Part shown: piece by piece, positions 33 to 20,009 of the stretch
Numbering within the stretch: the stretch's first letter is position 1
How the letters are laid out: each line of letters begins with the position of its first letter
Assembly: GCA_003162335.1 (NCBI GenBank)
Contig: PMMG01000137.1
Coordinates: 1 to 32,718, forward strand
DNA length: 32,718 nucleotides
Direction: 5' to 3'
From: Dehalococcoidia bacterium
GTDB taxonomy: Bacteria > Chloroflexota > Dehalococcoidia > Dehalococcoidales > Fen-1064
Program-made: the position numbers and the translations under genes
Notes under the pieces: model-generated
The model's database searches: none
Told to the model about the DNA's origin: nothing
What the model saw: only the letters and a program-made list of their open reading frames with translations

Positions 33-91
33 CTGCCTTAAAAAACAAACCACGCAAATTGTGGAAAAAGACAATAGAAGGAGAGACTCCC

Positions 92-619: not shown

Positions 620-740
620 ATTTTTAAATAGCGGTTATAGTTGCTTCCGGTAACCGAACAGCTGTTCCGGCCCGGCAGTCAAAATACGAATAATGCGGAA
701 ATAAAGGGTTACACGTTTAAACTCAAAAAGGAGTACTTCG

Positions 741-2906
741 GTGGAATTAGCAGATGGAATCACTCCACAAGATATAAAGCTATTCCTCACAGAGGCTGAC
801 GAACAATTACAGCTTCTTGATGAAGATATTGTCCGGTTGGAAAGAGAATCAGGCAATGTCAAACTGCTGCAAGAAATCTTTCGCGCTTCGCATACCATCA
901 AAGGCTCCTCGGCAATGATTGGTCATCAGCGGATGTCGCACATGGCTCACGGCATGGAAAATGTCCTTGATAAAGTGCGTAAAGGAACGCTGCCCGTCAG
1001 CAGTTTAGTCGTTGACGCCCTGCTCAAAGGACTGGATGGGCTGCGAATCCTCCGGGAAGAATTAGTGACCGGGGAAGAAAGCAAAGCGGATATCAATACC
1101 GTATTACTGGAACTGGAAGCGGCAATTTTACAAGGCGAAACCAGTCCGGAAGCAGCCGTTGCTGCTGCGGAGTTGCCCCTTGATAATGAATCTAAAGCTA
1201 AACTGGACAACGCACAGTCTCGTGGGGAGCGCGGTTTTCATATCAAAGTTGTTGTCAATAAAGATACTACCTGGGTGGCGGTTCGCTGCTTCCAGATCAT
1301 CCAGGAACTATCAAAAATCGGCGCTATTGTTAAATCGAACCCTTCGTTACCGGATATTGAAGCCGGTAAAACCGGTTCGAACATGGAGTTGATAATTACC
1401 AGTGCCGGTGACGAAAAGTCGATCAAAGAAGCGCTGGTAGATGTTCCTGAGTTGGATAGTGTGGCTGTTACATTGTACGCTTCCGAACAACCCGCATCTC
1501 CCGAAAAAGTAGAGCATGCGCCGACGGTCAATATTGCAGCGCCTGCTTGCGCCGAAAAACCGGCAATTCCGATCGCCGCATCCACTCCTGCGAATGCTGA
1601 AAAAACGGCCGCAGTAACCGGGGAAACCGCTACTCTCCATAAAGAAGACATGGCGGTCAAGCAAACCATTCGCGTCGATGTCAGCCGTCTGGATACCCTG
1701 ATGGAGCAAATCGGCGAACTGGTCATCAACCGCAATCACATCGGTCAGATTAGTAAAACACTGGCGGAAAAATATCAGGACGATGAAATGATTCGCACAC
1801 TCGCCGACAGCGTCTCCCAGACCGGTAAAATAGTGAACATCCTGCAGCAGGATATCATGACTATCCGCATGCTGCCCATCGAATTGGTATTTAATACTAT
1901 GCCGCGTATGGTTAGAGACTTGGCGCGCAAAATAGGTAAAAAAGTTGATTTTATCGTCGAAGGTCAGGAGACCGAGGTTGACCGCAGTGTTATCGAGCAT
2001 CTGCGCGACCCGCTGATCCACCTTTTGCGGAATTCTGTCGACCACGGCATCGAAAGCCCCGAAGAACGTCTAGCCGCGGGCAAACCCGAGACGGGCACTA
2101 TACACCTTTCGGCACATCACGAACAGGACCATATCGTGATTACCGTGTCGGATGACGGCAGAGGTATTGACCCGGAGGCAGTAAAAGCCGCCTCCATCAG
2201 AAAAGGAGTAATTTCACCCGAGGCCGCGGCCAGAATGACAGATACCGAACTGATGAATCTGATCATGGCATCCGGTGTTTCCACCGCCAGGACGATTACC
2301 GAAGTCTCAGGACGAGGAGTCGGCCTGGACATCGTGAAGAAAAACATCGAGTTCCTGAACGGAAAGATTAATGTCGAATCCAACGTAGGGAAGGGTTCTA
2401 CTTTCACGCTGCAATTGCCGCTTACCCTGGCTATAATTCCTACACTGATGGTCTCACTGGGAAATACGGTTTACGCAATTCCTCTGGCCACGATCGTAGA
2501 GGCAATTAAATTAGAATCAAAAGAAATTAAAACAGTCAGAGGGAAAGAGGTGACTCTGTACAGAAACCGTGTCTTACCTCTGCTTCGGTTAAACACTATT
2601 TTCAAATGGAGTCCCACAAACAACGGGGCATCTAATTTAATTCATATTGTCATAGTCAAAGCTTGCGAAATGCAGGTTGGTATCATTGTTGACGAACTGA
2701 TCGGACAACAGGAAATCGTGGTTAAATCGCTTGACCAGTTCATCGGCGGCGCCGAAGGTCTGAGCGGTGCCAGTATTCTTGGCGACGGCCAGGTGGTACT
2801 CATTCTTGATGTAAATTCACTCGTCAAAAGCACTATTGCCGAATCTCAAAACATTAAAGATGACACAGAACAGAATGGCACGGCCGTATTGGCCGGCGCG
2901 AGATAA
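741..2906 (+). CDS. cheA: Chemotaxis histidine kinase CheA
   Basis: HPt motif HTIKGSSAMIG, P2-like region, dimerisation domain, HATPase motifs (LRNSVDHGIE, DDGRGID, GRGVGLDIVK) and C-terminal CheW-like domain. GTG start with AAAGGAG. Confidence 0.95.
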   Translation: MELADGITPQDIKLFLTEADEQLQLLDEDIVRLERESGNVKLLQEIFRASHTIKGSSAMIGHQRMSHMAHGMENVLDKVRKGTLPVSSLVVDALLKGLDGLRILREELVTGEESKADINTVLLELEAAILQGETSPEAAVAAAELPLDNESKAKLDNAQSRGERGFHIKVVVNKDTTWVAVRCFQIIQELSKIGAIVKSNPSLPDIEAGKTGSNMELIITSAGDEKSIKEALVDVPELDSVAVTLYASEQPASPEKVEHAPTVNIAAPACAEKPAIPIAASTPANAEKTAAVTGETATLHKEDMAVKQTIRVDVSRLDTLMEQIGELVINRNHIGQISKTLAEKYQDDEMIRTLADSVSQTGKIVNILQQDIMTIRMLPIELVFNTMPRMVRDLARKIGKKVDFIVEGQETEVDRSVIEHLRDPLIHLLRNSVDHGIESPEERLAAGKPETGTIHLSAHHEQDHIVITVSDDGRGIDPEAVKAASIRKGVISPEAAARMTDTELMNLIMASGVSTARTITEVSGRGVGLDIVKKNIEFLNGKINVESNVGKGSTFTLQLPLTLAIIPTLMVSLGNTVYAIPLATIVEAIKLESKEIKTVRGKEVTLYRNRVLPLLRLNTIFKWSPTNNGASNLIHIVIVKACEMQVGIIVDELIGQQEIVVKSLDQFIGGAEGLSGASILGDGQVVLILDVNSLVKSTIAESQNIKDDTEQNGTAVLAGAR

Positions 2907-2942
2907 CAGGGCAAAGTGCAGGATAAGGAGGCAACTTCAAAC

Positions 2943-3536
2943 ATGGCAGAAAATATCACTGTGAAAACGCTGACTAGCAGCGAACAAATTGAAATGTTAA
3001 GGACAGGTGTCAGCAATGCGGTCAAAGGTCTTTCCCAGATGGTGGGCCAGGATATCAAAATTGCTAATATCAATTTGAATAAAGTGCAGGTAAAGGATAT
3101 TCCTGAACTTTTTGGCGGCCCGCAGGAAATGATGGTGGCTGTATACCTGGCAATTTGCGGCAATACCAATGGGCATATGATTGCCATTTATCAACCGCAA
3201 ACAGCTTTCGATCTTATAGATATGTTACTGGGGCAACCAGTCGGCTCCACTAAAGAACTGTCCGAAATGGAACGTTCCGTTCTGGGAGAAGTGGGTAATA
3301 TCATGGGTTCGTTTTTCCTGAACCATCTCTCCAATACTACCGGCAATTCTTTACAGCCGTCACCACCGGCAGTGTTGATGGACATGGCCGGCGCTATTCT
3401 CGAGGTCGCTACTGTCAGTGTCATGGAACAATGCGACCAGACCTACGTTATTGAAACTATATTCGAATCCAGCGATCGACAGGTAGCCGGCACTTTTTTG
3501 GTGATGCCGGTTCCGGGAATGGATCTAATTCAGTAA
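2943..3536 (+). CDS. cheC: CheC/CheX-family CheY-P phosphatase-like protein
   Basis: MERSVLGEVGNIMGSFFLNHLS matches the CheC active-site pattern (S-x3-E-x2-N). Flanked by cheA and cheD. Start revised to ATG 2943 after AAGGAGG. Confidence 0.85.
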   Translation: MAENITVKTLTSSEQIEMLRTGVSNAVKGLSQMVGQDIKIANINLNKVQVKDIPELFGGPQEMMVAVYLAICGNTNGHMIAIYQPQTAFDLIDMLLGQPVGSTKELSEMERSVLGEVGNIMGSFFLNHLSNTTGNSLQPSPPAVLMDMAGAILEVATVSVMEQCDQTYVIETIFESSDRQVAGTFLVMPVPGMDLIQ

Positions 3537-3570
3537 ATGAAAGTTAATAAAAATAATCGGGGAAAACACG

Positions 3571-4089
3571 ATGATCGAAACTTTGTCGAAAAATGAAGCC
3601 GATAACCAGGAATCAGTTCTCGTCGGATTGGGGGAGTTAAAAGTAACGCATTCGCCTTTGGTCATTCTGTCCTGTCTGGGAATTGGTTCTTGTATTGCAG
3701 TCTGTGTTTACGACAATTTATACAAAGTGGGAGGGATGGCGCATGTTGTCCTGCCTCACTGCGAAGGGAAACCGGGGGACAATCCAGGAAAGTACGCGGA
3801 TACTAGCATCCCGCTGCTCATTGGCGAGGTCGTAAAAATGGGCGGTCACCGCTCCCGTTTGACTGTGAAAATCGCCGGGGGAGCACAAATGTCACTGGCT
3901 CCCGGTCTTAAAAATACCTTTAAAACCGGAGAGCGGAATCTGGAAGGAGTAAAAGTCGCTCTCAGTAAAGAAGGGGTATCTTTAACCGCCGAAGATGTTG
4001 GCGGCAATAAAGGACGCACAGTCCGCATGTATGTTAACACCGGTAAGGTGACTGTGAGAATATCGGGAGGCGAAGACCGGGAAATATAG
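3571..4089 (+). CDS. cheD: Chemoreceptor glutamine deamidase CheD
   Basis: LSCLGIGSCIAVCVYDNLYKVGGMAHVVLPH (catalytic Cys/His context of CheD), KIAGGAQM; located between cheC and cheY. Confidence 0.92.
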   Translation: MIETLSKNEADNQESVLVGLGELKVTHSPLVILSCLGIGSCIAVCVYDNLYKVGGMAHVVLPHCEGKPGDNPGKYADTSIPLLIGEVVKMGGHRSRLTVKIAGGAQMSLAPGLKNTFKTGERNLEGVKVALSKEGVSLTAEDVGGNKGRTVRMYVNTGKVTVRISGGEDREI

Positions 4090-4142
4090 CTGATTATTTA
4101 CACCGGACTTTGTATTCTTAAAATCAGGGAGGATAAGTAAAA

Positions 4143-4508
4143 ATGGCAATAATATTAGTGGTAGATGACGCCATGTTCATGCGTAAGAAATGTTCTCAGC
4201 TCTTAACCGAGCAGGGGCATCAGGTCGTAGAAGCCGCTAACGGCGCGGAAGCAATCGCGCGTTATAAAGAGGCCAGACCGGACGGCGTGTTGATGGATAT
4301 TACCATGCCGGACATGGATGGACTGGAAGCACTAAAAGTAATGAAAGAGTACGACCCCAGTGCCAGGATCGCCATGTGCACCGCGATGGGACAGCAGAGC
4401 ATTGTTATTGAAGCATTAAAATCCGGGGCGATCGATTTCGTTGTTAAGCCGTTTGATGCCAACCGTGTTAAAGCGGCTGTGGCCAAACTGGTTCCCAGCG
4501 CGTCTTAA
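4143..4508 (+). CDS. cheY: Response regulator CheY (stand-alone receiver)
   Basis: Single REC domain: VVDDAMFMRKK, VLMDITMPDMDGLEAL, CTAMGQ, DFVVKPFD. Confidence 0.92.
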   Translation: MAIILVVDDAMFMRKKCSQLLTEQGHQVVEAANGAEAIARYKEARPDGVLMDITMPDMDGLEALKVMKEYDPSARIAMCTAMGQQSIVIEALKSGAIDFVVKPFDANRVKAAVAKLVPSAS

Positions 4509-4535
4509 AAATCGCCTTATGGCAAGAGGATGTAA

Positions 4536-5612
4536 ATGAGTAAAATCAGAGCATTTGTTGTCGATGATTCAGATTTTGTTATCGCGTCGGTTACGAAAAA
4601 ACTGAGCACCGACCCCGATATAGAAGTTGTTGGTTCGGCCCGCGACGGTAAAGAAGCAATTGAAAAAATCCGTACATTAAAACCGGACGTTATTACGCTG
4701 GATGTCGTCATGCCCGTGATGGATGGATTGGCTGTGCTGGAGCAGTTAATGACCTGGCAGCCGACACCGGTTGTTATGCTCAGCGCGCTGACCAGCGAAG
4801 GCGCAGAAACTACGATCAAGGCATTGGAACTGGGCGCTGTTGATTTCTTTTTAAAACCCTCTCTTCTCCGTCCTACCGGGAACGATGAGACCGGCGAAAC
4901 TTTGATCGAAAAAGTGAAGCGGGCTGCCGCATCGAAATTGAAACCATATTCGCCCGCTGCAAAACCGAAAATCACGATATCGAATAAAGACGCCGCCGCG
5001 AAAAGTCCCGTATCTTCAGGACAAAAATTTCCGGTTATCGTTATCGGCAGTTCGACCGGCGGTCCGCGGGCGTTGATGCAGATCATTCCTAATTTACCCA
5101 AAGATTTTCCTGCTGCGATTTTGATGGTCCAGCATATGCCGCCGTTATTTACTAAATCCCTTGCTGAAAGATTGAGCGGGGCATCACAAATCAAAGTTAT
5201 GGAAGCTGTGAACGGCAGCCAGATTGAACCCGGTCAGGCATTACTCGCGCCAGGCAGCTACCATATGGTGCCGGTCCGCGGTAACCGCATTACTTTGACT
5301 CAGGACCCTCCTGTCCACGGCGTCAGACCGGCGATCGATGTGACGATGAAAGCAGCAGTTGAAGTATATGGTAATAGCCTCATGGGTGTGGTGTTAACCG
5401 GTATGGGTTCGGACGGCGCTATCGGAGCATCGCAAATAAAAGCGGTGGGCGGAAAAGTGATCGTCGAAGATGAATCCACCTGTGCGGTTTACGGGATGCC
5501 GCAGGTTATTGTAAAAGCGGGTAACGCGGACAAGATCCTGCCCATTCACGAGATTGCGGCTGAACTTATCCAGATATATTGCGGTAATGCGCAGCCGGCG
5601 GTAAGGAGTTAA
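4536..5612 (+). CDS. cheB: Protein-glutamate methylesterase CheB
   Basis: REC domain plus methylesterase domain (VIVIGSSTGGPRAL, VQHMPPLFTKSLAERL, GMGSDGAIG). Confidence 0.95.
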   Translation: MSKIRAFVVDDSDFVIASVTKKLSTDPDIEVVGSARDGKEAIEKIRTLKPDVITLDVVMPVMDGLAVLEQLMTWQPTPVVMLSALTSEGAETTIKALELGAVDFFLKPSLLRPTGNDETGETLIEKVKRAAASKLKPYSPAAKPKITISNKDAAAKSPVSSGQKFPVIVIGSSTGGPRALMQIIPNLPKDFPAAILMVQHMPPLFTKSLAERLSGASQIKVMEAVNGSQIEPGQALLAPGSYHMVPVRGNRITLTQDPPVHGVRPAIDVTMKAAVEVYGNSLMGVVLTGMGSDGAIGASQIKAVGGKVIVEDESTCAVYGMPQVIVKAGNADKILPIHEIAAELIQIYCGNAQPAVRS

Positions 5613-5616
5613 TTGC

Positions 5617-6441
5617 ATGAATGAAATTGAATATGAGCATTTAAAAAGAAAGATCCGCCAGCTAATTCAGATTGACCTGAACAATTATAAAGAAAATCAG
5701 ATGATGCGCCGTCTTGACGGGTTCATTTCGCGCGCTAAAGCGACTGATATCGCTCAGTATTGTTCCAAACTCGATGGCGACCCTATGGAAATTGCCAAGT
5801 TACGTAATTTTATTACGATTAATGTTTCGGAATTCTACCGCGACCAGGTGCACTTCGAAACATTGCGGAAAATGGTGTTTCCCTCCTTACTGAGGAACAG
5901 CGCCAGACTAAATATCTGGAGCGCTGGCTGTTCAGACGGTCAGGAACCTTATTCCATTGCCATGATTCTTGATGAACTTACGCCCGGTATAAAACACCGT
6001 GTCTTCGCCACGGATATCGATAAAGAAAGCTTGAGCAAAGGCAATGCCGGAGGCCCTTACCAGCCCGCGGAAGTAAGAAATTTGCCCCAGACGCTGCTGA
6101 TGAAATATTTTTATTTTGGCGAAGATGGCTATACGGTTAATGAGAAAATCCGGGAAAGGATCATTTTTTCTCAATTGGACCTGACACGGGACAAATTCCC
6201 GATCGGTTTTGACTTGATTGTGTGCCGCAATGTCACTATCTATTTTTCGAACGAAACCAAGCGGATTCTTAGCCTTAATTTTCAGAATGCGCTAAAAGAA
6301 AACGGGATTTTATTCATTGGCGCCACCGAGACAATGCTCGATGCTGCCGATCTGGGATTCCAGCGCGTGCACCCCTGTTTTTATAAGAAGGTTACAAATC
6401 CCATATCGGAATCACCGAAGGTGTTTTCTTCAGCAATATAA
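5617..6441 (+). CDS. cheR: Chemotaxis protein methyltransferase CheR
   Basis: NVSEFYRD, IWSAGCSDGQEPYSIAM, FDLIVCRNVTIYF; AAGGAG start region. Confidence 0.94.
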   Translation: MNEIEYEHLKRKIRQLIQIDLNNYKENQMMRRLDGFISRAKATDIAQYCSKLDGDPMEIAKLRNFITINVSEFYRDQVHFETLRKMVFPSLLRNSARLNIWSAGCSDGQEPYSIAMILDELTPGIKHRVFATDIDKESLSKGNAGGPYQPAEVRNLPQTLLMKYFYFGEDGYTVNEKIRERIIFSQLDLTRDKFPIGFDLIVCRNVTIYFSNETKRILSLNFQNALKENGILFIGATETMLDAADLGFQRVHPCFYKKVTNPISESPKVFSSAI

Positions 6442-6461
6442 GCAGTAAATGAGAGAAACAT

Positions 6462-7541
6462 ATGAGACGTATAACGACAAAATATGCTCAGCCCGGAATG
6501 ATCCTGGGAATGCCGGTTTATGATAATTACGGGAAAGAATTATTAGGCCGGCGTACCAATCTGAATGAACAGCATCTGGCGCTTATGGCCAGGAACAGCA
6601 TCAGCGAAATCCTGATCGAAGACCAGCGCGTGGATGATCTGGTGGTCGCGCCGATGGTTTCTCCGGAAAAAGAAGGTAAACTCGCGGATGCCTTCCGCCA
6701 GATGCTGGTTAGAACTAAAAATATACAGACTATCGATTCCGCTTTCCTTTCTGCGGTCAATGTCGCGGTGAATGAGATCGGACGGAGTTTGTCTCTCAGT
6801 ATCATGGGTGAAATCAATGTGTCCTGCTCTGTTTCACAGACGGATTACGAGTATCTGCACCCGGTCAAATCCGCTATTCTTGCCATGGCGCTGGGGTACA
6901 GATTGGGCAAGTCCCATGATGAACTAGTTACCCTGGGCATGAGCTCACTTTTAAAAGATCTCAGCGGTGTTTTCCTGCCACCGGGTTTGCTGAACAAATC
7001 AAATCTGACGCCGGAAGAAGCCGCGCTCGTACAACAACACCCGGTAAAAAGTTATGAGTTGCTCTCACAGTTCAGTGAGATCAAAAACGGAATCGCCAAT
7101 GTGGTATTACAACATCACGAACAGTGGAACGGCAGCGGTTATCCGCGCGGATTAAAGGGCGAGCAGATTTCAAATTATGCTCAAATCATCTCCGCAGCCG
7201 ATGTATTTTCAGACTTGCTGGTGGAAGCGCCGGGAAAAGATAAATGCATGTCCCATGAAGCGATCGAATTTATTATGGCCGTCAGCGGCGACCAGTTCGA
7301 TCCCAGATTAGTGGAGTCTTTTGTCCGTAAAATTCCCGCCTATCCCAATGGGTTGACCGTAAAACTGAACAGCGGTGAAATCGGTATTGTGTCTGATCCT
7401 AATCTCGGTTTTGTCGCCAGACCGGTGATCAGGGTTACTTATGATCCGGAACACGGTAATCTGAAAAAACCGTATGATATCAATTTGGCGAAATCTGAAT
7501 ATCAGCGAAAACTGATTAGTAAAGTGCTGGAGTACGACTAG
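6462..7541 (+). CDS. HD-GYP domain protein with degenerate HD motif
   Basis: HHEQWNGSGYPRGLKGEQIS is an intact GYP segment, but the usual LLHDIGK position reads LLKDLSG. Directly downstream of cheR. Confidence 0.85.
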   Translation: MRRITTKYAQPGMILGMPVYDNYGKELLGRRTNLNEQHLALMARNSISEILIEDQRVDDLVVAPMVSPEKEGKLADAFRQMLVRTKNIQTIDSAFLSAVNVAVNEIGRSLSLSIMGEINVSCSVSQTDYEYLHPVKSAILAMALGYRLGKSHDELVTLGMSSLLKDLSGVFLPPGLLNKSNLTPEEAALVQQHPVKSYELLSQFSEIKNGIANVVLQHHEQWNGSGYPRGLKGEQISNYAQIISAADVFSDLLVEAPGKDKCMSHEAIEFIMAVSGDQFDPRLVESFVRKIPAYPNGLTVKLNSGEIGIVSDPNLGFVARPVIRVTYDPEHGNLKKPYDINLAKSEYQRKLISKVLEYD

Positions 7542-8134
7542 TGGCAAACGATGATGAAAAGGTCCTTTCTCAGGCCGATGTTGATGCTTTGGTAGCTTTG
7601 GTGCCGGATGCGCCGCGCGCTGCTGCACCTCTTCCGCAAGCTACACAGCCCCCGCCGCCACCTCCACCCGTGCCTGCGTCCGTGCCGCCGATAATGGTTA
7701 ATGTTAAAACGGTACCGGCCGCCGCGGAACCCGCCCGCGCCAATTCTTCTGCTGTTCACGGATCTAGTGTCAGCTCTGTCTCTTTGGGTGAGGTAATGGT
7801 CTTGAAAAAAAATGTGGACGACCTCACTAAACAGGTGAATAAATTCGCTAACACTGCCCAGCGGCTCGATGCAATGGAAGAAAGAATCGGGGAACTGGCA
7901 TTCAAGATTGAACGCAGTTCATATAACGTACAACCTGGTCGTGAAGAAATTGCCCAGATCAGGAACGAATTACGGGAACTGGCGCGTGAAGCGAATCACC
8001 GTCCGCAAGGGCTACAGGATGAATTCCTGTGCGAGCATTGTAAAGCGAAAGGCACAATGGCTGTTTTTACCAAATGTACCTCTTGCGGTAGGGAAGGCTG
8101 GTTCGGTTGGTGGCCCAGGAAGAAAACCCGTTAA
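7541..8134 (+). CDS. FliM-N-terminus-like CheY-binding peptide / Pro-rich linker / coiled coil / zinc-ribbon protein; candidate chemotaxis-archaellum adaptor
   Basis: N-terminus MANDDEKVLSQADVDALVALV resembles FliM/FliY (LSQ-x-E-I-D-A-L-L); linker PLPQATQPPPPPPPVP; coiled-coil region with LDAMEERIGELAFKIE; C-terminal CEHC...CTSC zinc-ribbon pattern. GTG overlaps the preceding TAG (TAGTGG), suggesting translational coupling. Confidence 0.85.
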   Translation: MANDDEKVLSQADVDALVALVPDAPRAAAPLPQATQPPPPPPPVPASVPPIMVNVKTVPAAAEPARANSSAVHGSSVSSVSLGEVMVLKKNVDDLTKQVNKFANTAQRLDAMEERIGELAFKIERSSYNVQPGREEIAQIRNELRELAREANHRPQGLQDEFLCEHCKAKGTMAVFTKCTSCGREGWFGWWPRKKTR

Positions 8135-8838: not shown

Positions 8839-9249
8839 ATGAAATTTTGGTTTCAACGCGTTAATGTTCCCGTCTTGGGGAACTCCACCGGAAAATCAAG
8901 GACAGACTCTCAATCCTTCGGGGAAAAAACGAACGCCTTTTCCCGTGGATTGATGCAAGTTATTGTTCTCTTTTGTGCTCTGGAAATGCTGGATGCGTTG
9001 TTTACCTTTGCCGCGGTTAACCTCGGGTTGGTCTTGGAAGGCAATCACCTGGTTGCCCAGATGGCGGGGAACTGGGTTTTTCTTCTGTTAAAATTCGCCG
9101 GCGCGGTTTTATCCGGGTTGGTCCTGCAAAAATTGCACGCGCATTTCCCCAGGCTAGCGCTTGGGGCTGCGATCGGTATCGCAGTGTTTTACGGATTGGT
9201 CTTGGCCTGGAACTCAGGTATGATTATCCGAGTGCTGCTCAAGGGCTAA
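8839..9249 (+). CDS. Small membrane protein, DUF5658-like
   Basis: Three predicted TM segments, MLDALFTFAAVNLGLVLEGNHLVAQMAGNWVFLLLKFAGA; AGGAAAG upstream of the ATG. Confidence 0.65.
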   Translation: MKFWFQRVNVPVLGNSTGKSRTDSQSFGEKTNAFSRGLMQVIVLFCALEMLDALFTFAAVNLGLVLEGNHLVAQMAGNWVFLLLKFAGAVLSGLVLQKLHAHFPRLALGAAIGIAVFYGLVLAWNSGMIIRVLLKG

Positions 9250-9377: not shown

Positions 9378-10004
9378 CTAATGCTCGATCCAGTAAAGTA
9401 TTTTCACATTAACGGTCGGGTCTTTATCCAGGATATAAGGATGAAAAACATAATACCCGTCCGGCCACTTCTGATCCGACGGTGTGAGCACGATACTGCC
9501 TGACCTGTTCAATTGGTCGCATGGGGTGTCGCCGGTCAATGCTACAAATCCGCCTGTTGCCTTTTCTCCGACATATTTTCCGTCCGGCGTGTTAATTGAC
9601 ATTCTGATATGTTCTCCCACACCGGATACAGTCCAGACCAGGTGAATAGTGTCATTGGCGGATAAATATATCGGCAACGTATATTCAGCATATGTCTGCG
9701 GCGTGGTAATTTGCAGAGGGAAAGTCGATTGTATCAGTGTTGGGGTTGTTGTTACCTTGGTTGTCGTAGGTGTCGTGGGAGGAGGAACTGTCGGAGTAGT
9801 CGAAGGCGCTGCGGTAGATGCGGCGGGTTTTGGCGTGGTTTTAGTGGGGGTTTTGGAAGCGCAACCGGCGGCTGTTATTGTTAAAGTGAGAAATGCAAGC
9901 AAAATACCCATAAATACAAAACGGTTCCCCATTATCGCTTGAGCAAAATTGCCGCCGGTTTTTTGCGCTTTCCTCTTTATTAATGATGCCTGTATATTTC
10001 TCAT
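9378..10004 (-). CDS. Putative lipoprotein with Thr/Pro-rich stalk, terminal gene of archaellum operon
   Basis: Hydrophobic signal followed by lipobox-like TAAGC, then a T/P/A-rich segment and a C-terminal beta-rich domain. Starts 6 bp after the stop of the upstream gene; AGGAG before the ATG. Confidence 0.75.
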   Translation of the reverse strand: MRNIQASLIKRKAQKTGGNFAQAIMGNRFVFMGILLAFLTLTITAAGCASKTPTKTTPKPAASTAAPSTTPTVPPPTTPTTTKVTTTPTLIQSTFPLQITTPQTYAEYTLPIYLSANDTIHLVWTVSGVGEHIRMSINTPDGKYVGEKATGGFVALTGDTPCDQLNRSGSIVLTPSDQKWPDGYYVFHPYILDKDPTVNVKILYWIEH

Positions 10005-10009
10005 GATCG

Positions 10010-10966
10010 TTAGCTCCTGTTTCGTTTCAGAATGCTTATAAGGTCCTGGCTTTCTTTGAGCAGACTGTCAATTTCTACATCTTTCATATCTTTGGCGAGT
10101 TTAGTAGCTTCAGTATCGTCCACCGCGTCTTTTGAAAACATCTTGGACATGTCATCCAGCGATGACTTCTGTTCCGTCGGTTTTTTTACGATCGGCGTAC
10201 TCGCCGCTGCCGCCGCGGGTTTAGCCGCCGGTGGTGTTGCGGGCGTTTTTACGGCTGCCGGGTTAACAGGCGGTGTAGTAGTTTTATTGTCCATCTTTGG
10301 ATTGGTCTCCTTTTTTACGGGTTCGTTAGCGGTTTTTACGTTTTCAGCGGAGACGGGATTTTTATTTTCCGCTGTCGCAGTTGTTTTTACCGCATTTACG
10401 GCAGGCGGAGTATTTTGCACAACTGAAGGTATTGTCTTTGTGGTTTCGCTTTTGGGCGGTACCGGCGTTGCTGCCGCGGTTGGCTTAATATTGCTTGCAG
10501 CACTGACTGGATTCTCTTTTTTCACCTGATTCGCAATTATTGTTTGCTGACCGTCGGCCTTCGGCGCAAGTGATTGCACCTGTTTATTAGTTGCGTTTGT
10601 ATTCTGTGTTACAGTTTCGTTTGTTTTTTCTGATCTAACTTTGCCTAACCGGATTTTAAAAAGCTTCTTTTCCTTTTTTCCCGGTTTGCCGGTTTCATTG
10701 ACCGGTTTAACGGTCTTTTCCGATTTTGTCTTCGCAAACGGCATTTTATAAACTTTCTTGGCTTTAGGTTGCTTTGCTTCAAATGTTTTTACTTCCGGTT
10801 GTTCCTGTGTTACCTGTTGTCCCGGTTCCTTTTCTATTGTTGTATTAATCGCACCAGTCCTTGTCACAGGGGCTCTGACAAAGTAAATAATTGTCAAAAC
10901 CAGCACAGTGCCGGCCATCAGCAGGATACCGATGTAAAGGTAAATCGCTATCATATTTTCGTCCAT
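10010..10966 (-). CDS. Single-pass membrane protein with long Lys/Pro/Ala-rich region and conserved-looking C-terminal helix
   Basis: N-terminal TM (IYLYIGILLMAGTVLVLTIIYFV), low-complexity K/P/A/T region, C-terminus DMKDVEIDSLLKESQDLISILKRNRS. Begins 16 bp after the arlJ stop. Confidence 0.75.
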   Translation of the reverse strand: MDENMIAIYLYIGILLMAGTVLVLTIIYFVRAPVTRTGAINTTIEKEPGQQVTQEQPEVKTFEAKQPKAKKVYKMPFAKTKSEKTVKPVNETGKPGKKEKKLFKIRLGKVRSEKTNETVTQNTNATNKQVQSLAPKADGQQTIIANQVKKENPVSAASNIKPTAAATPVPPKSETTKTIPSVVQNTPPAVNAVKTTATAENKNPVSAENVKTANEPVKKETNPKMDNKTTTPPVNPAAVKTPATPPAAKPAAAAASTPIVKKPTEQKSSLDDMSKMFSKDAVDDTEATKLAKDMKDVEIDSLLKESQDLISILKRNRS

Positions 10967-10981: not shown

Positions 10982-12505
10982 TTACTTGAAATTCAAAAAC
11001 ATCATGTTTACTACAGGAGGCACTCCGATCATAATTATTCCGGAGATCGCGCTGGTTATTGCCAGGTAGAATGTAAGCTTTGCAGTATGTCCTCCGCTTA
11101 CGGCGTAAATAGCGAACGCGTTAGCAATCGTAAGAATGATCGTAATTAATATGATCATGAAATGTAACAGCTTGATTTCGGTGCCGCCCGAGGAAAAGAA
11201 TCCGGAGGTAGCCAAACCTAACGATTGAATTGAAGTGTCGCTGTTCGCCGGAATAATTGTTTGCACAAGTGTGGAGAATGAAAGAAAAACCTGATAAACA
11301 AATACCGACAATGTAACCAGTACTGCGTGCATCGCTATGGTTAGCCACGTAAAACCTAAGGAAATCTGTGTTCTTTGCGAGCGCAGCAGCGAAATTTTCA
11401 GTGCGAAGGCGCTGGCTTCATTACCTATTTTTTGCGGGTCTCCTCCCAAAGAAATCCCGTCCCAAAAAATCCGTACGGTACGGTTAACCAACTCTGAACC
11501 TGTTTCACTTACAAATCTGTCCCAACATAGATTCGGGCTTACGCCTGCCTCCAGTCTGGTATGGAGCAGTTTAACATCTTCTGTCAGTATACCCAGCGAA
11601 CGAAAATCGAGACGGCCCATTGCTTCGGCCGCGGTGGCGCCGATCGCTGCCATCGTGCCACCGAGTGAACGGAGAAATGCGGAAACATCAGCATCCCGTA
11701 ATGTGACTTTTTTATCATCAGTTGTCGCTACAAATCCTATCGGGAAAAGAAAAGCGCTGGCCGCCAGCAGCATGTATCCCAGGTCCAGTTTCATTACCAG
11801 CATGACCAGCATCACAAATCCACCCAGGGGCAGAAGGATCCGGCATAAATATTTCACCATGTTTTGTTCATGAGAACGGTAAGGTAACGTATGGTTTATA
11901 GATTCGCGGGGAGCTGTATTATACAAAAACCAGGCTCCAAAAATGGTGGCCAGAATTGTGATCGCAGAAATCGATATAATAAAAGCTACACTGACGCTGC
12001 CGATCATCATTGTTACCACAGACATTACCGTGACCAGGGCTGAGGTCAGGATTAAAGACACGTATGCATCGGCCCATTTCTTTAAAAGGTCGATTTTCCT
12101 TTCGTAAATACTGGTATATGATTCGGAAAGAATGTGCGCTTCACGCGAAAGAAACGCGGAAACGTCCTCGCCTGATGCCAGTGCATTGGACAGACGTAAC
12201 AACAGCGCCTTGATCTCCGATATTTTTGTTTTTTCACCAACGATACGGCATGCCTGTGCGTAATCGTGGTTAAACATCTTTGCGACAAAATCTACTCTGC
12301 GGAAGTATTTCGTGGCAATGTAAGGCAATTTCGCCGAATAAAAGAAAAGTCCGCTGCGCGTTATCCCCGATGTGGATATCGAAGCCATATAAGCGAGTTG
12401 CGAAAAGAAATCGATATCGGCTAATTGATTATCGAAATTAGCTTCACCGGCTTTTTTCTTTTTATCGGTTTCTTTATTTTTTAGAAAGAGAGTAAGTAGT
12501 CCCAT
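10982..12505 (-). CDS. arlJ: Archaellum membrane platform protein ArlJ (FlaJ)
   Basis: Type II secretion F-domain-like polytopic protein with two similar cytoplasmic helical regions (FFSQLAYMASISTSGI..., DVSAFLRSLGGTMAAIGATAAEAM); immediately downstream of two arlI genes. Confidence 0.88.
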   Translation of the reverse strand: MGLLTLFLKNKETDKKKKAGEANFDNQLADIDFFSQLAYMASISTSGITRSGLFFYSAKLPYIATKYFRRVDFVAKMFNHDYAQACRIVGEKTKISEIKALLLRLSNALASGEDVSAFLSREAHILSESYTSIYERKIDLLKKWADAYVSLILTSALVTVMSVVTMMIGSVSVAFIISISAITILATIFGAWFLYNTAPRESINHTLPYRSHEQNMVKYLCRILLPLGGFVMLVMLVMKLDLGYMLLAASAFLFPIGFVATTDDKKVTLRDADVSAFLRSLGGTMAAIGATAAEAMGRLDFRSLGILTEDVKLLHTRLEAGVSPNLCWDRFVSETGSELVNRTVRIFWDGISLGGDPQKIGNEASAFALKISLLRSQRTQISLGFTWLTIAMHAVLVTLSVFVYQVFLSFSTLVQTIIPANSDTSIQSLGLATSGFFSSGGTEIKLLHFMIILITIILTIANAFAIYAVSGGHTAKLTFYLAITSAISGIIMIGVPPVVNMMFLNFK

Positions 12506-14244
12506 TAGAACAACCCCTCTTGTTGTGCCTTATTGAGCACATCTAATACCTCATAGAAGCCCTTGACACCTCTTTCTTTGTGCAGCTTTTGCAGGATGAT
12601 CGCCCTTCTCTCAACTTCGGCATAGACACGTTGTTTTTTGTGCGGCGGTATGCCCAGTTTCGGCGCGATTAATTCCTCCAGCACATAGCTGCTCATATAT
12701 CCGCTAAATTCAAATGTATCGTTTTCCTGATTCCATTTAAAACTTTCCACAAATGAAAATGATTCAAGAGCGGCATCATAGTTCACGATCTCGGAAATAC
12801 CGGTAATACGCCGTCCCTGTCTGCCATTTGGTAATTTAACCTGGCTGGTCAGGATGACAACATTCAGGTTATCCACATAGTTTTTCGGTACCAGGATGGG
12901 ATCGCCGGTTAAACGCTGGATCAATTTCTCAATTGATGCGGCGTGAAAAGTTGCCATTACCGAGTGTCCTGTCTGCATTGCCTGAAATGCGACGTTGCCT
13001 TCTTTGCCTCTGATTTCACCGATCATTAATTCATCAGGTCTCTGGCGTAAAGCAGCTTTCAGCAGGTCGAACATGGTGATTGCGCCGCCGTTGTCCTCAA
13101 CTTTGCTGGACTGTACCACTTCCCTGATCCAGTTCTGGTGCGGCACCTGCAATTCCGGAGTATCTTCGATTGTGATTATTTTCGCCAGCGGCGGGATAAA
13201 AACAGTTAAAGCATTCAGTAAAGTCGTTTTGCCCGATGCCGTTTCTCCAGAAACGAAGGCATTCATACCGTTGCCGATTGCCAGCGAAAGGTAGGCTAAC
13301 ATCTCGTAATTGAAAGTGCCGAACTCCAGCACCTCGAAGACTGAGAGAGGGACTTCCGCGAATTTACGAATACTGAAATTGGATCCTCTTTTGGAAACTT
13401 CGCGTCCGTAAACTATATTAATACGCGAACCGTCCGGCAATGTGGCATCGGAAATCGGCGCTTTAAATGTGACCGGTTTCTTGACCCGGTCGCCCAGCCA
13501 CAGCACGAATTCATCCAGGTCGTCCAGTGTGACAAAAGTGACGGTGCTTTTCAGCGCCTTAAAAATTTTATGTTCGATAAATATTTGTCCGAGCCCGGAG
13601 CAGCTGATATCTTCGATGTACGGGTCTACGATCAGCGGGTCCATTGCCCCCAGTCCCAGTTTATTACGCACAAACAGGTATTTAATAGCATCCAGTTCCC
13701 TTTGGGTGACCTTGATCTTGTTCACTCCCTGAAGATTATTTTGCAGAAACCCCAGACTTTTGTTGATGACGCCTGTATTCTTCGGGTCATCTTCGACAGT
13801 GGTTACCAGCTTGAGAAAATCAATGAATTGTTTTTCTTTGTCTTCATCCGGGTTGACCTTTTTCAGTTTATTTCTGGCATTAAGTAATTGAATCTCAATA
13901 TCCATCATCAATTTATCGAGTTCAAGCCCATAATGGGGTTCGATGGGGATGTAATGGTTTCTATCCGGTCCCGGCAGAATATGGATGAAGACCGCGTTCC
14001 GGTGGGCGGGGTAAATGATGTTGGGTTTTTTGATATCCCCGTGCTTACGGGTCAATTCCGGGGCATACTCCGGTATCCCGAATTCCTCGAACGGCATTCG
14101 GCTGAGGTATGCCAGCACATGGGGATGCTCCTCGGCTACTTTCTTCAATCCCTCCGGCAGGTCCTTGAAAATATCAGCCTGGATATTTGCGTTATCCGCA
14201 GCCGTATCGGTTTTTATTGCATATGGTAATTGTGTTATTGCCAT
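12505..14244 (-). CDS. arlI: Archaellum motor ATPase ArlI (FlaI), copy 2
   Basis: Walker A GETASGKT, Walker B LMIGEIRG, His box TGHSVMATFHAAS, PYIEDISCSG. Start revised to ATG 14244 (TTAAGGTGTTTTTTATG). Overlaps the arlJ start. Confidence 0.92.
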   Translation of the reverse strand: MAITQLPYAIKTDTAADNANIQADIFKDLPEGLKKVAEEHPHVLAYLSRMPFEEFGIPEYAPELTRKHGDIKKPNIIYPAHRNAVFIHILPGPDRNHYIPIEPHYGLELDKLMMDIEIQLLNARNKLKKVNPDEDKEKQFIDFLKLVTTVEDDPKNTGVINKSLGFLQNNLQGVNKIKVTQRELDAIKYLFVRNKLGLGAMDPLIVDPYIEDISCSGLGQIFIEHKIFKALKSTVTFVTLDDLDEFVLWLGDRVKKPVTFKAPISDATLPDGSRINIVYGREVSKRGSNFSIRKFAEVPLSVFEVLEFGTFNYEMLAYLSLAIGNGMNAFVSGETASGKTTLLNALTVFIPPLAKIITIEDTPELQVPHQNWIREVVQSSKVEDNGGAITMFDLLKAALRQRPDELMIGEIRGKEGNVAFQAMQTGHSVMATFHAASIEKLIQRLTGDPILVPKNYVDNLNVVILTSQVKLPNGRQGRRITGISEIVNYDAALESFSFVESFKWNQENDTFEFSGYMSSYVLEELIAPKLGIPPHKKQRVYAEVERRAIILQKLHKERGVKGFYEVLDVLNKAQQEGLF

Positions 14245-14262
14245 AAAAAACACCTTAAATTA

Positions 14263-16014
14263 TTAGAATAATCCTTGCTGCTGGGCTTTACTGAGAACAT
14301 CCAGCACTTCATAAAAGCCTTTTATTCCCCTGCCTCTATGCAGTTCTTCCAATATTCTTGCCCGGCGGTCGATTTCTTCATAAATTTTACCTTTCTTGTT
14401 ACTGGGGATACCCAGACGGGGCGCAATTTTAAACTCCATGACAAAACTGGTCATGTAACCGACGAAATCAAACCTGTCCGTTGCTTCATCATGATGAAAG
14501 GCTTCGGCGATGTTAAAAGATTGTGTTAACGGATCCCAACCCACTATTTCCGCGATGCTGGTAATGCGGCGCCCGATCTTCCCGTTCGGCAGCCTGACCA
14601 TACCCATCAGTACGGCGATGTTCAGGTTATCCAGGTAAGCTCTCGGCACGGAGATAGGTTCACCGGTGATTCTTTGAATCAGTTTCTCGATGGATGCAGC
14701 GTGGAAAGTCGCCATGCAGGAGTGCCCGGTTTGCATAGCCTGGAAAGCAATGTTCCCTTCCTTTCCGCGGATTTCCCCGATCAAAATTTCGTTTGGTCTC
14801 TGCCGCAAAGCTGCTCTCAGCAGGTCGAACATGGTGACACCGCCTTCGCCTTCTGCTTTGCTGGAGGAAACTACTTCGCGGATCCAGTTTGCGTGCGGCA
14901 CCTGTAATTCCGGCGTGTCTTCAATCGTAATGATCTTGGACAGCGGCGGGATGAAGGTGGTAACGGCATTGAGCAGTGCTGTTTTACCTGAGGCTGACTC
15001 CCCCGCGACAAACACATTCATACCGTTACTGATTGCAAGCGAAAGGTATGCCAACATCTGATAATTAATCGTACCGAAATCCACAATTTCAAAAATGGAA
15101 AGCGGGACTTCGCTGAATTTCCGGATACTGAAATTGGAGCCCCGTTTTGAAATATCACGGCCGTAAACGATATTGATACGCGATCCATCCGGCAATGTGG
15201 CATCTGCGATCGGATTTTTGTAAGTGACAGGTTTTTTGATCCGTTCGGCCAGCTCGATCACGAATTCATCGAGGTCCTCAAAAGTGGAAAAGTTAATGGT
15301 GCTTTTCAGACTTTTGAATATCTTGTGTTCAATAAAAATATTGCCCATACCGGAACAGCTGATATCTTCGATGTAGGGATCCGTAATAATCGGCTCCAGA
15401 ATGCCCAGTTTTACTTTGTCGCGCACGAAGAGATATTTGATGCCGGCCAGTTCTTCCGGGGTTACTTTGACGTTGAGCGGAGTTTCGTCATCCTTCTTCT
15501 TCTTTAAAAGTTGCGAGATAAATTTAAGAAAGAAATTTGTGCCGGGTTGTTTTGCATCCGCGGTAGCCTGGTCCAGATAAGCGAGCAGTTGTTTTTCCCG
15601 GTCGACATCAGGGTTGATCCCGGGTATTTTTTCACTGATGGCAATGCAAGCATCTTCCACTTCATTCAGTATTTTATCCAGATTCAGCGTCGTGGTGGGC
15701 TCGATTTGAATGTAATTATGTCTATAGCCGCTGTCATCGAACAGGATGTGCACAAAGAGACCGTCATTCTTTATCGGGTAGATGATGTTCGGCGCTTTGT
15801 TATCCCCCATATTTCTGGTCAATTCCGCCGCATAATCCGGTATCCCGATTTTCGATATCGGCAGCCAGCTGATGTATTCAAAAAGGCGGGGATTCTTCTC
15901 TGCCACTTCCCGCAAACCTTCCGGCAGCATCTCGGCGAGTTGGTCCCGAGTGCGCTCAAAGTCGCGGGCGTCCGCCCTTTTTTCTATTGAAAATGGTAAA
16001 GTTATTGTTCCCAT
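14263..16014 (-). CDS. arlI: Archaellum motor ATPase ArlI (FlaI), copy 1
   Basis: Walker A GESASGKT, Walker B ILIGEIRG, His box TGHSCMATFHAAS, PYIEDISCSG. Long identical blocks shared with 12505-14244. Confidence 0.93.
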   Translation of the reverse strand: MGTITLPFSIEKRADARDFERTRDQLAEMLPEGLREVAEKNPRLFEYISWLPISKIGIPDYAAELTRNMGDNKAPNIIYPIKNDGLFVHILFDDSGYRHNYIQIEPTTTLNLDKILNEVEDACIAISEKIPGINPDVDREKQLLAYLDQATADAKQPGTNFFLKFISQLLKKKKDDETPLNVKVTPEELAGIKYLFVRDKVKLGILEPIITDPYIEDISCSGMGNIFIEHKIFKSLKSTINFSTFEDLDEFVIELAERIKKPVTYKNPIADATLPDGSRINIVYGRDISKRGSNFSIRKFSEVPLSIFEIVDFGTINYQMLAYLSLAISNGMNVFVAGESASGKTALLNAVTTFIPPLSKIITIEDTPELQVPHANWIREVVSSSKAEGEGGVTMFDLLRAALRQRPNEILIGEIRGKEGNIAFQAMQTGHSCMATFHAASIEKLIQRITGEPISVPRAYLDNLNIAVLMGMVRLPNGKIGRRITSIAEIVGWDPLTQSFNIAEAFHHDEATDRFDFVGYMTSFVMEFKIAPRLGIPSNKKGKIYEEIDRRARILEELHRGRGIKGFYEVLDVLSKAQQQGLF

Positions 16015-16016
16015 GT

Positions 16017-16736
16017 TTAAGCCTTTGCTCTAGACAGCGGCATGATCTTCATTCCGACCTCCGGTTCTATTTCGAAAGTCACGATGTTGCCGGTGGTCTG
16101 GGCTGCGCCTCTGACCTTGGCTACCTCGAGGGTTTTTACCAGTTTATCCCCGATTTTTTCGATCGTCAGTTTCAGGTGTGCATCACAGGCCGAGCGCAGA
16201 CGGATCAAAATATCATTATTGACTGCATAAGTATGTACCACGTTAATTATCGTTCTGTTCTGGTCGCAATAAGTCTTGCAGCGCTCAAAATAACTGAGTA
16301 ACTCCCCGTCGTTTGTGTTGGACACGATAGGCGTTAAAGAATCCAGAATAGTGAGTTGATAATTGGTATATTTCCCCACCGTGTCCAGGATAGTATCAAA
16401 AGTTTTGGTCGCGTTAACCTTTATCTCCGAAGGCCGCATATAATAAACCTTGACCTTGCCCAGCAGCATATAATCCAATATGCCTAATCCCAGGCTGTCC
16501 ATCTGCTTGACCAGGCTTTTTGCCGAATTTTCAGAGGTGAACACCAGCACTTTATAATTGCTCTTCAGTGACCCCCAGATCATTTGCTGGCAGAGTACCG
16601 ATTTCCCGGCATCCGATTGGCCTTCGATCAGAGTCAGTGAGCCGATGGGTAAACCGCCGCCCAGTTTCTTATCGATCTCCGGGTGCCCGGTGGATATAAT
16701 TTTCTTTTTTGTCTCGGTTTCCTCTACGTTTGCCAT
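16017..16736 (-). CDS. arlH: Archaellum KaiC-like ATPase ArlH (FlaH)
   Basis: RecA/KaiC-like: ISTGHPEIDKKLGGGLPIGSLTLIEGQSDAGKSVLCQQ (Walker A), LTILDSLTPIVS (Walker B); directly upstream of arlI. Confidence 0.92.
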   Translation of the reverse strand: MANVEETETKKKIISTGHPEIDKKLGGGLPIGSLTLIEGQSDAGKSVLCQQMIWGSLKSNYKVLVFTSENSAKSLVKQMDSLGLGILDYMLLGKVKVYYMRPSEIKVNATKTFDTILDTVGKYTNYQLTILDSLTPIVSNTNDGELLSYFERCKTYCDQNRTIINVVHTYAVNNDILIRLRSACDAHLKLTIEKIGDKLVKTLEVAKVRGAAQTTGNIVTFEIEPEVGMKIMPLSRAKA

Positions 16737-17275: not shown

Positions 17276-17749
17276 CTATTCAACTCCAAAGACCGTCTCA
17301 TCGAAAATGCCGTTGGGTATTATTACTTTCAATATATAAGTGTTCGGCGAAGGTAAAGCCGCTAAGTGAATGACTATCTTGTTGGTATCTGTCGGCCGCC
17401 ATTGGCTGTCCGTTCCTTCGATTTGATAGCTCCAATACGGCAGCGGTGAGCTTTCATTGCCGTACGGGATTCTGGTGAAGTTGCCCTGGGGACCAAAAAA
17501 GATATCACTGTTTTCTACAGTGACAATATCGGAAGTCCCGACATTTTTCACCCAGGCATCTACGGTTGTACCGTTGTCATTGACCTGAATAATCCGGATA
17601 TCGCTCTTTATCCGCTCATTCAGCGAATCGCTGGCGCTCGTGATTGCCGAACCGCTGCGCTCTATCGCCGGATATATTCCGTTAAAGACGGCAAAAGCCG
17701 CCACAATTCCACCGATAATTAGCATTACCGTAACAATTATTTTATCCAC
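17276..17749 (-). CDS. arlG: Archaellum stator-like protein ArlG (FlaG)
   Basis: N-terminal helix VTVMLIIGGIVAAFAVFNGIYPAIERSGSAITSASDSLNERIKSDIRIIQV, as in FlaG, followed by an Ig-like beta domain (VDAWVKNVGTSDI). Confidence 0.75.
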   Translation of the reverse strand: MDKIIVTVMLIIGGIVAAFAVFNGIYPAIERSGSAITSASDSLNERIKSDIRIIQVNDNGTTVDAWVKNVGTSDIVTVENSDIFFGPQGNFTRIPYGNESSPLPYWSYQIEGTDSQWRPTDTNKIVIHLAALPSPNTYILKVIIPNGIFDETVFGVE

Positions 17750-18611
17750 GAGCGTCTCCTTGTGCCAGAACCATCAGCAGAGCCGCGTTATAGTCGCTGT
17801 TATTACCAAAAAGCGCCGCGATCTTAACGAGGGATTCAAAATAATCACGGGCGTTTGGTTTATATGAATTTTCATTTGATTTGATCGTCGTCAGTTTAGT
17901 TAATATTGTTTTCACTTCCGGCGGCAAAAATCCGGCCACTTCCGATAATTCCAGAAGGGCCTGTGTTCTTTCTTTGCCCAGCCGTTTGGTTGCGTCTTCA
18001 ACCCAGCAAGCCAGACCGGCATAAGCCGCCAGGTCCGGTTGTCCTTTTACCGTCCGGCTGGCGCATAATTCAAAGCGGGGTCGTTCATTTTCATAGTCAT
18101 CCATCAGATTTGTGTCCTCACGGAGTGTTTCCGTGGATTTTTTACCGTTATGCTTATGTTCTATTTCAGTTTGTTCCATTGCTTTTCTCCCGTTTCCTTT
18201 ATGTTCGGGTTCGTAGCTTTCATTAGCGTGCGTTTCATTTTGGCGTGTTGTTTGTGCCGTTTTTTGTTCTTGTAACGGCTGAGCTTGAGCGGCTGCCTGC
18301 ACGGGGGCATTTGCGGCAGCGGAGATTGGTGCGGGTGCCGGCGCGGTGGCAGAGGGCGCAGCAGCTGTTTTTACTTCTGCTGCTGGTTGCGGCGGGCTTG
18401 TCTGGATCTGACGGTCGATGATAATCTGACTGGTATTATTGGCATTAGCCCTCTGTGAGTTAAACGGATTTTCTGCGTTGAGCACATTCTCCCGGATATC
18501 AAGCAAAACAGCCTGAACTTCATTTTTCAGGACTTTTATCTCGTTTTCCAGTTGGGTTATTTTGTCGCTAGTTTCCAAAGGAGTGCTCCTCAGGTTCATT
18601 CTAAGCTTCAC
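17742..18611 (-). CDS. ArlD/E-like archaellum cytosolic scaffold protein
   Basis: N-terminal coiled coil, A/P/Q-rich linker, C-terminal LAAYAGLACWVEDATKRLGKERTQALLELSEVAGFLPPEVKTILTKL, reminiscent of the FlaD/E domain (WleflvervG...dvLdyYveiGWIs..V). Located between archaellins and arlG. Confidence 0.65.
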   Translation of the reverse strand: MKLRMNLRSTPLETSDKITQLENEIKVLKNEVQAVLLDIRENVLNAENPFNSQRANANNTSQIIIDRQIQTSPPQPAAEVKTAAAPSATAPAPAPISAAANAPVQAAAQAQPLQEQKTAQTTRQNETHANESYEPEHKGNGRKAMEQTEIEHKHNGKKSTETLREDTNLMDDYENERPRFELCASRTVKGQPDLAAYAGLACWVEDATKRLGKERTQALLELSEVAGFLPPEVKTILTKLTTIKSNENSYKPNARDYFESLVKIAALFGNNSDYNAALLMVLAQGDARG

Positions 18612-18687: not shown

Positions 18688-19299
18688 TTAGTGTAAATCC
18701 ATCACGGTTTGGATTGCGCCGGGCAGAGTCCTCGTGATGGTAATCGCTGCGCCTTTCGGCGGGATCACTTGGATGGTGAAGGATCCGTAACCGGCCAGCG
18801 TATTTGTTGGCAGGGTTACTGTTATCTTCATCTGTTCGTCGGCGTCCAGCATTGTGGCTACGCCGCGCTCTTTACCTTCCAGTGCGGCGGCCCAATTGCC
18901 GGTACCGGTGGCACCACCAATATTGGGTACATTTGCGCCGGTAGAATCAGTGTAGTTAATGACTACGCCGTTGTTCGGGGGTGCCGTCATGTCGACTGCG
19001 TCGTCCTGCAGCACCGAAGCCAGGGTGAATTGTACGGAATCGACTGTTGCAGCCGTGTTACCGTTGGCCGGTGTGCCCATACAAATGACATCACCTCTCA
19101 ATTCCATTGAAGCAGAAGCCTGGTCGAGTCCCTTGTACACCGCGGCTTTACCCTTTTCAGAGGAGAAGATACCGGCGGATAGTACGCTGTAAGCTAAGAC
19201 TGACGCCACGGTCACGAAGGCGATCAGGATAATAGCTGTTTCAAGGCCGGTAATACCTTTTTCCCCGCGATGTAAACCCTTGAAGAACTTTTTGATCAT
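18688..19299 (-). CDS. arlB: Archaellin, copy 3
   Basis: Class III signal peptide MIKKFFKGLHRGEKG|ITGLETAIILIAFVTVASVLAYSVLSAGIF; C-terminus ITRTLPGAIQTVMDLH. Confidence 0.92.
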   Translation of the reverse strand: MIKKFFKGLHRGEKGITGLETAIILIAFVTVASVLAYSVLSAGIFSSEKGKAAVYKGLDQASASMELRGDVICMGTPANGNTAATVDSVQFTLASVLQDDAVDMTAPPNNGVVINYTDSTGANVPNIGGATGTGNWAAALEGKERGVATMLDADEQMKITVTLPTNTLAGYGSFTIQVIPPKGAAITITRTLPGAIQTVMDLH

Positions 19300-19350
19300 C
19301 GTTATTTAACTCCCTTTTTATTATTTTTAGCCGTTCTCAAGCTAAATTGA

Positions 19351-19962
19351 TTAATGTAAATCCATGACATCGGCGATGGCACCCGGCAGCGTGCGGGTAA
19401 TGGTGATCGCTGCGCCCTTCGGTGGGATTATCTGCAGGGTGAACGTGCTGTAAGCAGCCAGTGCGTTGGAAGTGGGCAACGTTACAGTTACAATCATTTG
19501 CTCATCGGCATCCAGCATGTTGACGGTACCGCGCTCGGCGCCAACCAGTGCGGCAGACCATGTGCCGCTGGCGGCGGCGGAGCCACTGCCCATGTCTGAG
19601 ACATCCATACCGTTGGAATCGGTGTAATTAATGACAACGGAATTGTTCGTGGGAGCTGTCATGTCAACCGAATCATCCTGTAATACGGAAGCAACTGTAA
19701 ATTGAATGCTGCTTACCTTTGTGCCGTTGGATGACAGCGCCAGGACTGAACCTCTCAGTTCCATGGAAGCAGAAGCCTGGTCGAGTCCTTTATAGACCGC
19801 TGCTTTGCCTTTCTCAGATGAGAAGATACCGGCAGATAATACACTGTAGGCTAAGACTGATGCTACAGTTACGAAAGCAATCAAAATGATCGCTGTTTCA
19901 AGGCCCGTGATGCCTTTTTGTCCGCGATGCAGACCTTTAAAGAACCTGTTGAATTTGCTCAT
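19351..19962 (-). CDS. arlB: Archaellin, copy 2
   Basis: MSKFNRFFKGLHRGQKG|ITGLETAIILIAFVTVASVLAYSVLSAGIF; C-terminus ITRTLPGAIADVMDLH. Confidence 0.93.
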   Translation of the reverse strand: MSKFNRFFKGLHRGQKGITGLETAIILIAFVTVASVLAYSVLSAGIFSSEKGKAAVYKGLDQASASMELRGSVLALSSNGTKVSSIQFTVASVLQDDSVDMTAPTNNSVVINYTDSNGMDVSDMGSGSAAASGTWSAALVGAERGTVNMLDADEQMIVTVTLPTSNALAAYSTFTLQIIPPKGAAITITRTLPGAIADVMDLH

Positions 19963-20009
19963 TTTATTTACTCCTTTTTTATTATTTATGATCTTTTTTC
20001 AACAATTGA

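Follow-up and report, generated by a model that had tools for sequence, protein, structure and literature searches.

Protein X, an apparently unnamed protein encoded behind arlJ in arl2-type archaellum operons of Chloroflexota and, very likely, archaea: a possible membrane tether with a motor-docking module

The window analysed here is a 32,718-nucleotide stretch of a Dehalococcoidia contig (PMMG01000137.1, assembly GCA_003162335.1), and its minus strand carries an arl2-type archaellum operon that ends in arlJ, a gene whose product we call protein X, and a lipoprotein gene. In order of transcription, the operon comprises three archaellins (18688-20591), an arlC/D/E-like gene (17742-18611), arlG, arlF, the KaiC-like arlH (16017-16736; Pfam ATPase/KaiC, 2e-23), two tandem open reading frames for arlI ATPases (14263-16014 and 12505-14253), arlJ, encoding the membrane platform (10982-12505; T2SSF Pfam match), X (10010-10966) and a putative lipoprotein (9378-10004). 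The latter begins 5 nt after the stop codon of X and is probably co-transcribed with it, and was seen only in the window and its closest relative, locus L045. A che operon occupies the plus strand (59-8134). Several gene names in the two operons were assigned by position and by reading of the sequence, and the arlI label is based on a GKT motif seen in the sequence together with operon position. Homologs of arlJ are present in 13 of 61 relatives, and a comparison of ArlJ places Dehalococcoidales and other Dehalococcoidia MAGs closest among the named relatives. That Chloroflexota have functional archaella is established (PMC12488501).

Protein X has 318 residues and is, judging from its reading frame, operon position and orthologs, the product of the last motor-type gene of the operon. 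The frame opens with an ATG directly preceded by a sequence resembling a ribosome binding site (AGAGGG), and it lies close behind arlJ as originally proposed, with a gap of 15 nt after the arlJ end at 10982 in place of the 16 bp claimed. The predicted N-terminal transmembrane (TM) helix is supported by a Kyte-Doolittle maximum of 2.57 near residue 12 and by an AlphaFold2 helix spanning residues 3-30 (10877-10960) at a pLDDT of about 90. It is followed by the expected low-complexity region of about 230 residues, a Lys/Pro/Ala/Thr-rich linker (residues 38-266, 10169-10855; 42% P/A/S/T, 18% K/R) that is predicted to be disordered (AlphaFold2 pLDDT below 50), and by a conserved C-terminal three-helix module at about residues 269-318 (10013-10162), delimited by the profiles A3 and A4 and by AlphaFold2. 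In the full-length model the module helices cover residues 269-276, 286-295 and 299-317 with pLDDT of about 65-89, and the module modelled alone with 26 sequences again gave three helices at a mean pLDDT of 83, with a pTM of only 0.43. The C-terminus had been described as acidic and helical; the helices stand, but the acidity is only mild (12 D/E and 9 K/R in the last 51 residues). According to the positive-inside rule, positively charged segments flanking a TM helix remain on the cytoplasmic side, and since Lys/Arg-rich sequence follows the helix here, we infer a membrane topology in which the linker extends into the cytoplasm.

Among the three parts of X, it is the C-terminal one that persists across Chloroflexota. 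The C-terminus is 65% identical to that of an ortholog adjoining an ArlJ of 71% identity, close relatives keep the C-terminus of the post-arlJ gene while the linker differs, and the profile of the module, about 45 residues long, finds matches across the class with E down to 3e-19. Loss of conservation at the C-terminus had been set in advance as evidence against the original prediction; the module is instead conserved. When the profile of the last 50 residues was searched against all ORFs of 63 ArlJ loci and the results were read by eye, a complete bacterial X was found at 44 loci and a cut X at two, the remaining loci reaching a contig edge or being archaeal or fragmentary; the most divergent of these proteins (SAR202 and several Anaerolineae) had no significant iterated-profile E, and their assignment is based on position and visual reading. 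Synteny proved similarly stable, with X near-universal as the last arl gene: wherever the contig extends far enough, it occupies this place at all Chloroflexota arl loci that the arlJ scan covered, and in clusters rearranged to the order J-C-DE-H-I it follows arlI instead of arlJ. The membrane anchor, in contrast, is variable, as a TM helix is present in 19 and absent from 27 of 46 bacterial X proteins (the 44 complete ones, the window protein and that of L029). SAR202 and other lineages begin with a short basic or amphipathic stretch in its place, in some Anaerolineae (L068, L085, L087) an extra stretch apparently separates two TM helices, and the X of L048 has 78 residues and thus little beyond the module. 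The linker also varies in length and composition, many orthologs having D/E-rich linkers, so the Lys/Pro/Ala/Thr composition seen in the window is not conserved. Because both the TM helix and the linker vary, the C-terminal module is the defining part of X.

Several features accompany X in particular lineages. At the SAR202-type loci L089, L090 and L093-L098 the linker of X contains an additional conserved segment, ALWDLSELDPEIYEDVF, and several of these clusters have a response regulator gene next after X. In Anaerolineae, reading by eye placed a prepilin peptidase-like gene after X (in the stretches L083 11986-14318, L080 12013-14965, L068 12556-13197, L085 12532-13236), and at L083 and L080 PilN- and PilO-like proteins are also encoded downstream. 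The gene order at L083 and L080 thus places X behind arlJ and ahead of the pilN/pilO genes, which have been reported for loci of the L. aerophila type.

By profile search, X occurs in 53 and arlJ in 56 of 393 genomes of the class, and both occur together in 49, leaving four genomes with X alone and seven with arlJ alone; the Fisher p of 6e-50 is only indicative, as the genomes share descent. In most of the seven arlJ-only genomes an X-like gene is present on reading by eye. In one archaellated genome, G581, no X could be recognised immediately after arlJ, and in G648 the downstream X is doubtful. Of 62 module matches, 46 are encoded immediately behind arlJ and on its strand, and most others are explained by contig breaks (G048, G535, G682), by weak or false matches, or by free copies of the module. 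Three matches were set aside as probable false positives: one with internal stop codons (G454), one inside an enzyme (G490, contig C110) and a weak one away from arl genes (G453, contig C3). The free copies are found in six genomes of one family, f86 (G465, G480, G508, G568, G578 and G598), as stand-alone ORFs that contain hardly anything besides the module (modelled length 54-133 residues), and they share a similar neighbourhood near a DegV-like gene and devoid of motility genes (L196 8230-8403 on the minus strand, L197 3680-4081, L198 1652-1951, L199 1885-2049, L200 1454-1618 and L201 1763-2002). Orthologs away from arl clusters had also been named as evidence against the original prediction; they do occur, mainly as these short copies, but the genomes concerned carry an operonic X as well. 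Such micro-copies, which are possibly soluble competitors of X, would also suit a soluble regulator and hence a role of X in positioning or recruitment, where the N-terminus would fix the membrane site of the assembled motor and the module would bind either a MinD-like protein or a polar landmark. Recruitment adaptors in general typically combine an anchor and a disordered linker with short docking helices at a terminus, and the placement of the Haloferax archaellum needs MinD4 (PMC12488501). However, X is strictly linked to arl operons in bacteria and archaea alike, which speaks more for a dedicated partner of the motor, and we consider the positioning role plausible but rather unlikely.

The archaeal side of this linkage emerged from Methanocalculus and an Archaeoglobales MAG, in which the gene directly 3' of arlJ has an X-like layout. 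The module is present at 46 of 49 further archaeal arlJ loci, and the archaeal profile matches 73 of 247 genomes of that archaeal phylum. Across a short alignment, the bacterial and archaeal module profiles match at E 8e-6 with a probability of 84% (hhalign), sequence evidence that is moderate on its own; in a similar profile comparison the score was 25.1, whereas none of 100 column shuffles exceeded 19.4. With just four archaeal sequences, an earlier comparison had given a weak match (probability 16%), which became convincing with 24 or more. In the searches of ORFs, almost all matches of the bacterial profile among archaeal ORFs are the post-arlJ gene, and, searched against 20,620 ORFs, the archaeal profile matches nothing bacterial at E<1 except X genes. 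The post-arlJ protein of Methanomicrobia and Archaeoglobales (examples are L101 11509-12648 and L092 11548-12282) resembles X in position, N-terminal membrane segment or segments, long low-complexity linker and C-terminal helical module, and the window protein in turn has the post-arlJ place, the module and the N-terminal membrane segment of the archaeal family. The archaeal protein differs from the window X in its acidic linker and, in Methanomicrobia, in its two TM helices, and direct identity is low, as the module alone aligns. Considering the profile evidence together with the identical operon position, homology is very likely, and the sequences thus very likely represent one family that is archaeal as well as bacterial. 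A Methanotecta-like donor of the Chloroflexota arl cluster is proposed in PMC12488501, and given this homology X probably arrived with the cluster from such a donor. Halobacteria seemingly lack X (archaeal profile, 247 genomes of the phylum), so X is not required for every archaellum. The least probable reading is that X is a passenger gene of the operon, devoid of any motor role, since fast linker evolution and a variable anchor, which would agree with it, stand against a gene kept in Chloroflexota and archaea, with a conserved module, and retained through changes of gene order.

No family had been recognised for X, and our searches bear this out, as there is no credible Pfam, NCBIfam or PDB sequence match and a PDB fold search with the full-length model returned no match. 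Term searches in passages of the literature on Chloroflexota archaella and of archaellum reviews found no mention of X. A set of 191 T4P-linked arCOGs is tabulated in the supplement of Makarova et al. 2016, and an unnamed arCOG for the archaeal protein may already exist. The family is thus apparently unnamed and, because it is present in nearly all Chloroflexota clusters and in the majority of those from related methanogens and Archaeoglobales, X is probably a genuine, overlooked part of the archaellum motor. With ArlC, ArlD and ArlE it shares the character of a cytosolic accessory protein encoded in the arl operon, these often having low-complexity linkers too, but neither X nor its relatives match the ArlC/D/E Pfam models (FlaC_arch PF05377 and related; E up to 1), and the window has a separate arlC/D/E gene. 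The original prediction had likened X to ArlX (FlaX) of Thermoproteota, which shares a single N-terminal TM helix, a cytoplasmic part and a gene in the arl operon (PMC8978795). ArlX, by means of its coiled-coil domain, assembles into rings of 30 nm and takes the place of ArlCDE. X appears highly unlikely to be a similar ring scaffold around ArlI/ArlH, and this analogy is not supported: a ring-forming coiled-coil domain is lacking, residues 38-266 are predicted to be disordered, arlC/D/E, regarded as the counterpart of ArlX, is found in the same operon and at related loci, the module has only about 45 residues, and across the family the TM helix is dispensable.

A further part of the original prediction, a tether to the chemosensory machinery, is not supported either. 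In its most explicit form, this reading takes the C-terminal helix of X (DVEIDSLLKES) as a FliM-like peptide that docks CheY-P and replaces CheF, which is reported absent from Chloroflexota. The EIDSLL of the window protein does resemble the EIDALL of FliM (PMC9126983), and X is often encoded between arl and che genes; across the family, however, the EID columns vary, and an LSQxEIDALL-type motif is not conserved. Further, 34 of the 49 genomes with arlJ and X have no detectable CheA, 24 of them being at least 90% complete, so chemotaxis is not the main role of X. CheF itself is likewise encoded next to arl genes in the same archaea, but it binds CheY-P and carries two PH-like domains at its N-terminus (PMC9126983), whereas X has no predicted globular domain and no Pfam match, occurs without CheA and coexists with CheF, a CheF-like gene following X in Methanocalculus. 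Taken together, a chemotaxis link through X seems very improbable. A zinc-ribbon protein encoded by the last gene of the che operon (7541-8134, plus strand), separate from X, has a far better FliM motif at its start, and its distribution follows that of CheA. Its relatives (L045 10178-10783, L049 12505-13182, L046 12466-13047, L053 1084-1674 and L216-L239) mostly start with LSQ/LTQ-x-E/D-I/V-D-A-L/M, followed by a linker, a coiled coil and a CxxC...CxxC...GWWGWWP ribbon, and a few matches lack the FliM-type motif; motifs of the FliM/FliY type bind CheY-P (PMC9126983). The zinc-ribbon protein was found in all 17 tested genomes with arl genes (arlJ, or X for G682) and CheA, in one of 21 with arlJ and no CheA, and in none of three with CheA and no arlJ; for the first two groups the Fisher p is 6e-10, a value that ignores kinship among the genomes. 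PMC12488501 presents the route from CheY to the archaellum in Chloroflexota as an open question and calls for a substitute of CheF. Judging from these patterns, the zinc-ribbon protein may be the missing CheY-to-archaellum adaptor, for which it is a better candidate than X, and it makes this route directly testable in Chloroflexota.

For X itself, the membrane-to-motor tether contained in the original prediction is still the best reading, and we hold with moderate confidence that X is a conserved accessory subunit of arl2-type archaella serving as a membrane tether with a motor-docking module. Counting against this reading are the lack of a TM helix in 27 of the 46 bacterial X proteins, the near module-only X of L048, the genomes G581 and G648, and the seeming absence of X from Halobacteria. 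The layout of X, in which a disordered linker joins a membrane anchor to a helical module at the C-terminus, is consistent with a tether or recruitment protein; the docking, the partner and the mechanical role are inferred. X would be inherited jointly with the motor genes and kept at the membrane by its N-terminus, that is, by one TM helix in the window protein, by two in Methanomicrobia and some Anaerolineae, and presumably by a short basic or hydrophobic start with membrane-targeting capacity in SAR202 and other lineages. The long linker would then extend into the cytoplasm, where the three-helix module would dock on the cytosolic motor and thereby retain or recruit ArlI/ArlH beneath the ArlJ platform. 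The partner should be present in all arl operons that carry X. ArlI/ArlH is favoured because X stays beside arlH-arlI when arlJ moves, and because of the precedent of ArlX, a membrane-anchored protein that binds ArlI and ArlH (PMC8978795); ArlCDE or ArlJ are alternatives that we do not favour. More tentatively, X could be an overlooked core subunit in Methanotecta and Chloroflexota, a flexible tether of ArlH/ArlI to the platform on which assembly or torque would depend, and the micro-copies would compete with it in soluble form. If this were true, X and the zinc-ribbon adaptor with its FliM-N motif would supply two missing parts of the bacterial archaellum. Descriptions of the archaellum present a simple motor whose list of parts is fixed; X would extend that list and is relevant to how the membrane holds the cytosolic motor.

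Two other features of the locus recur elsewhere. The GKT (Walker A) motif is apparently intact in both tandem arlI copies of the window, and a tandem pair is also present at L045, L046, L048, L049, L050 and L104; of the two copies, one might serve assembly and the other rotation. Additionally, a small DUF5658 membrane protein encoded close to the arl and che genes (8839-9249, plus strand) is found again at L017 (9591-9974), L046 (14130-14432), L048 (11704-12087) and L053 (16217-16618).
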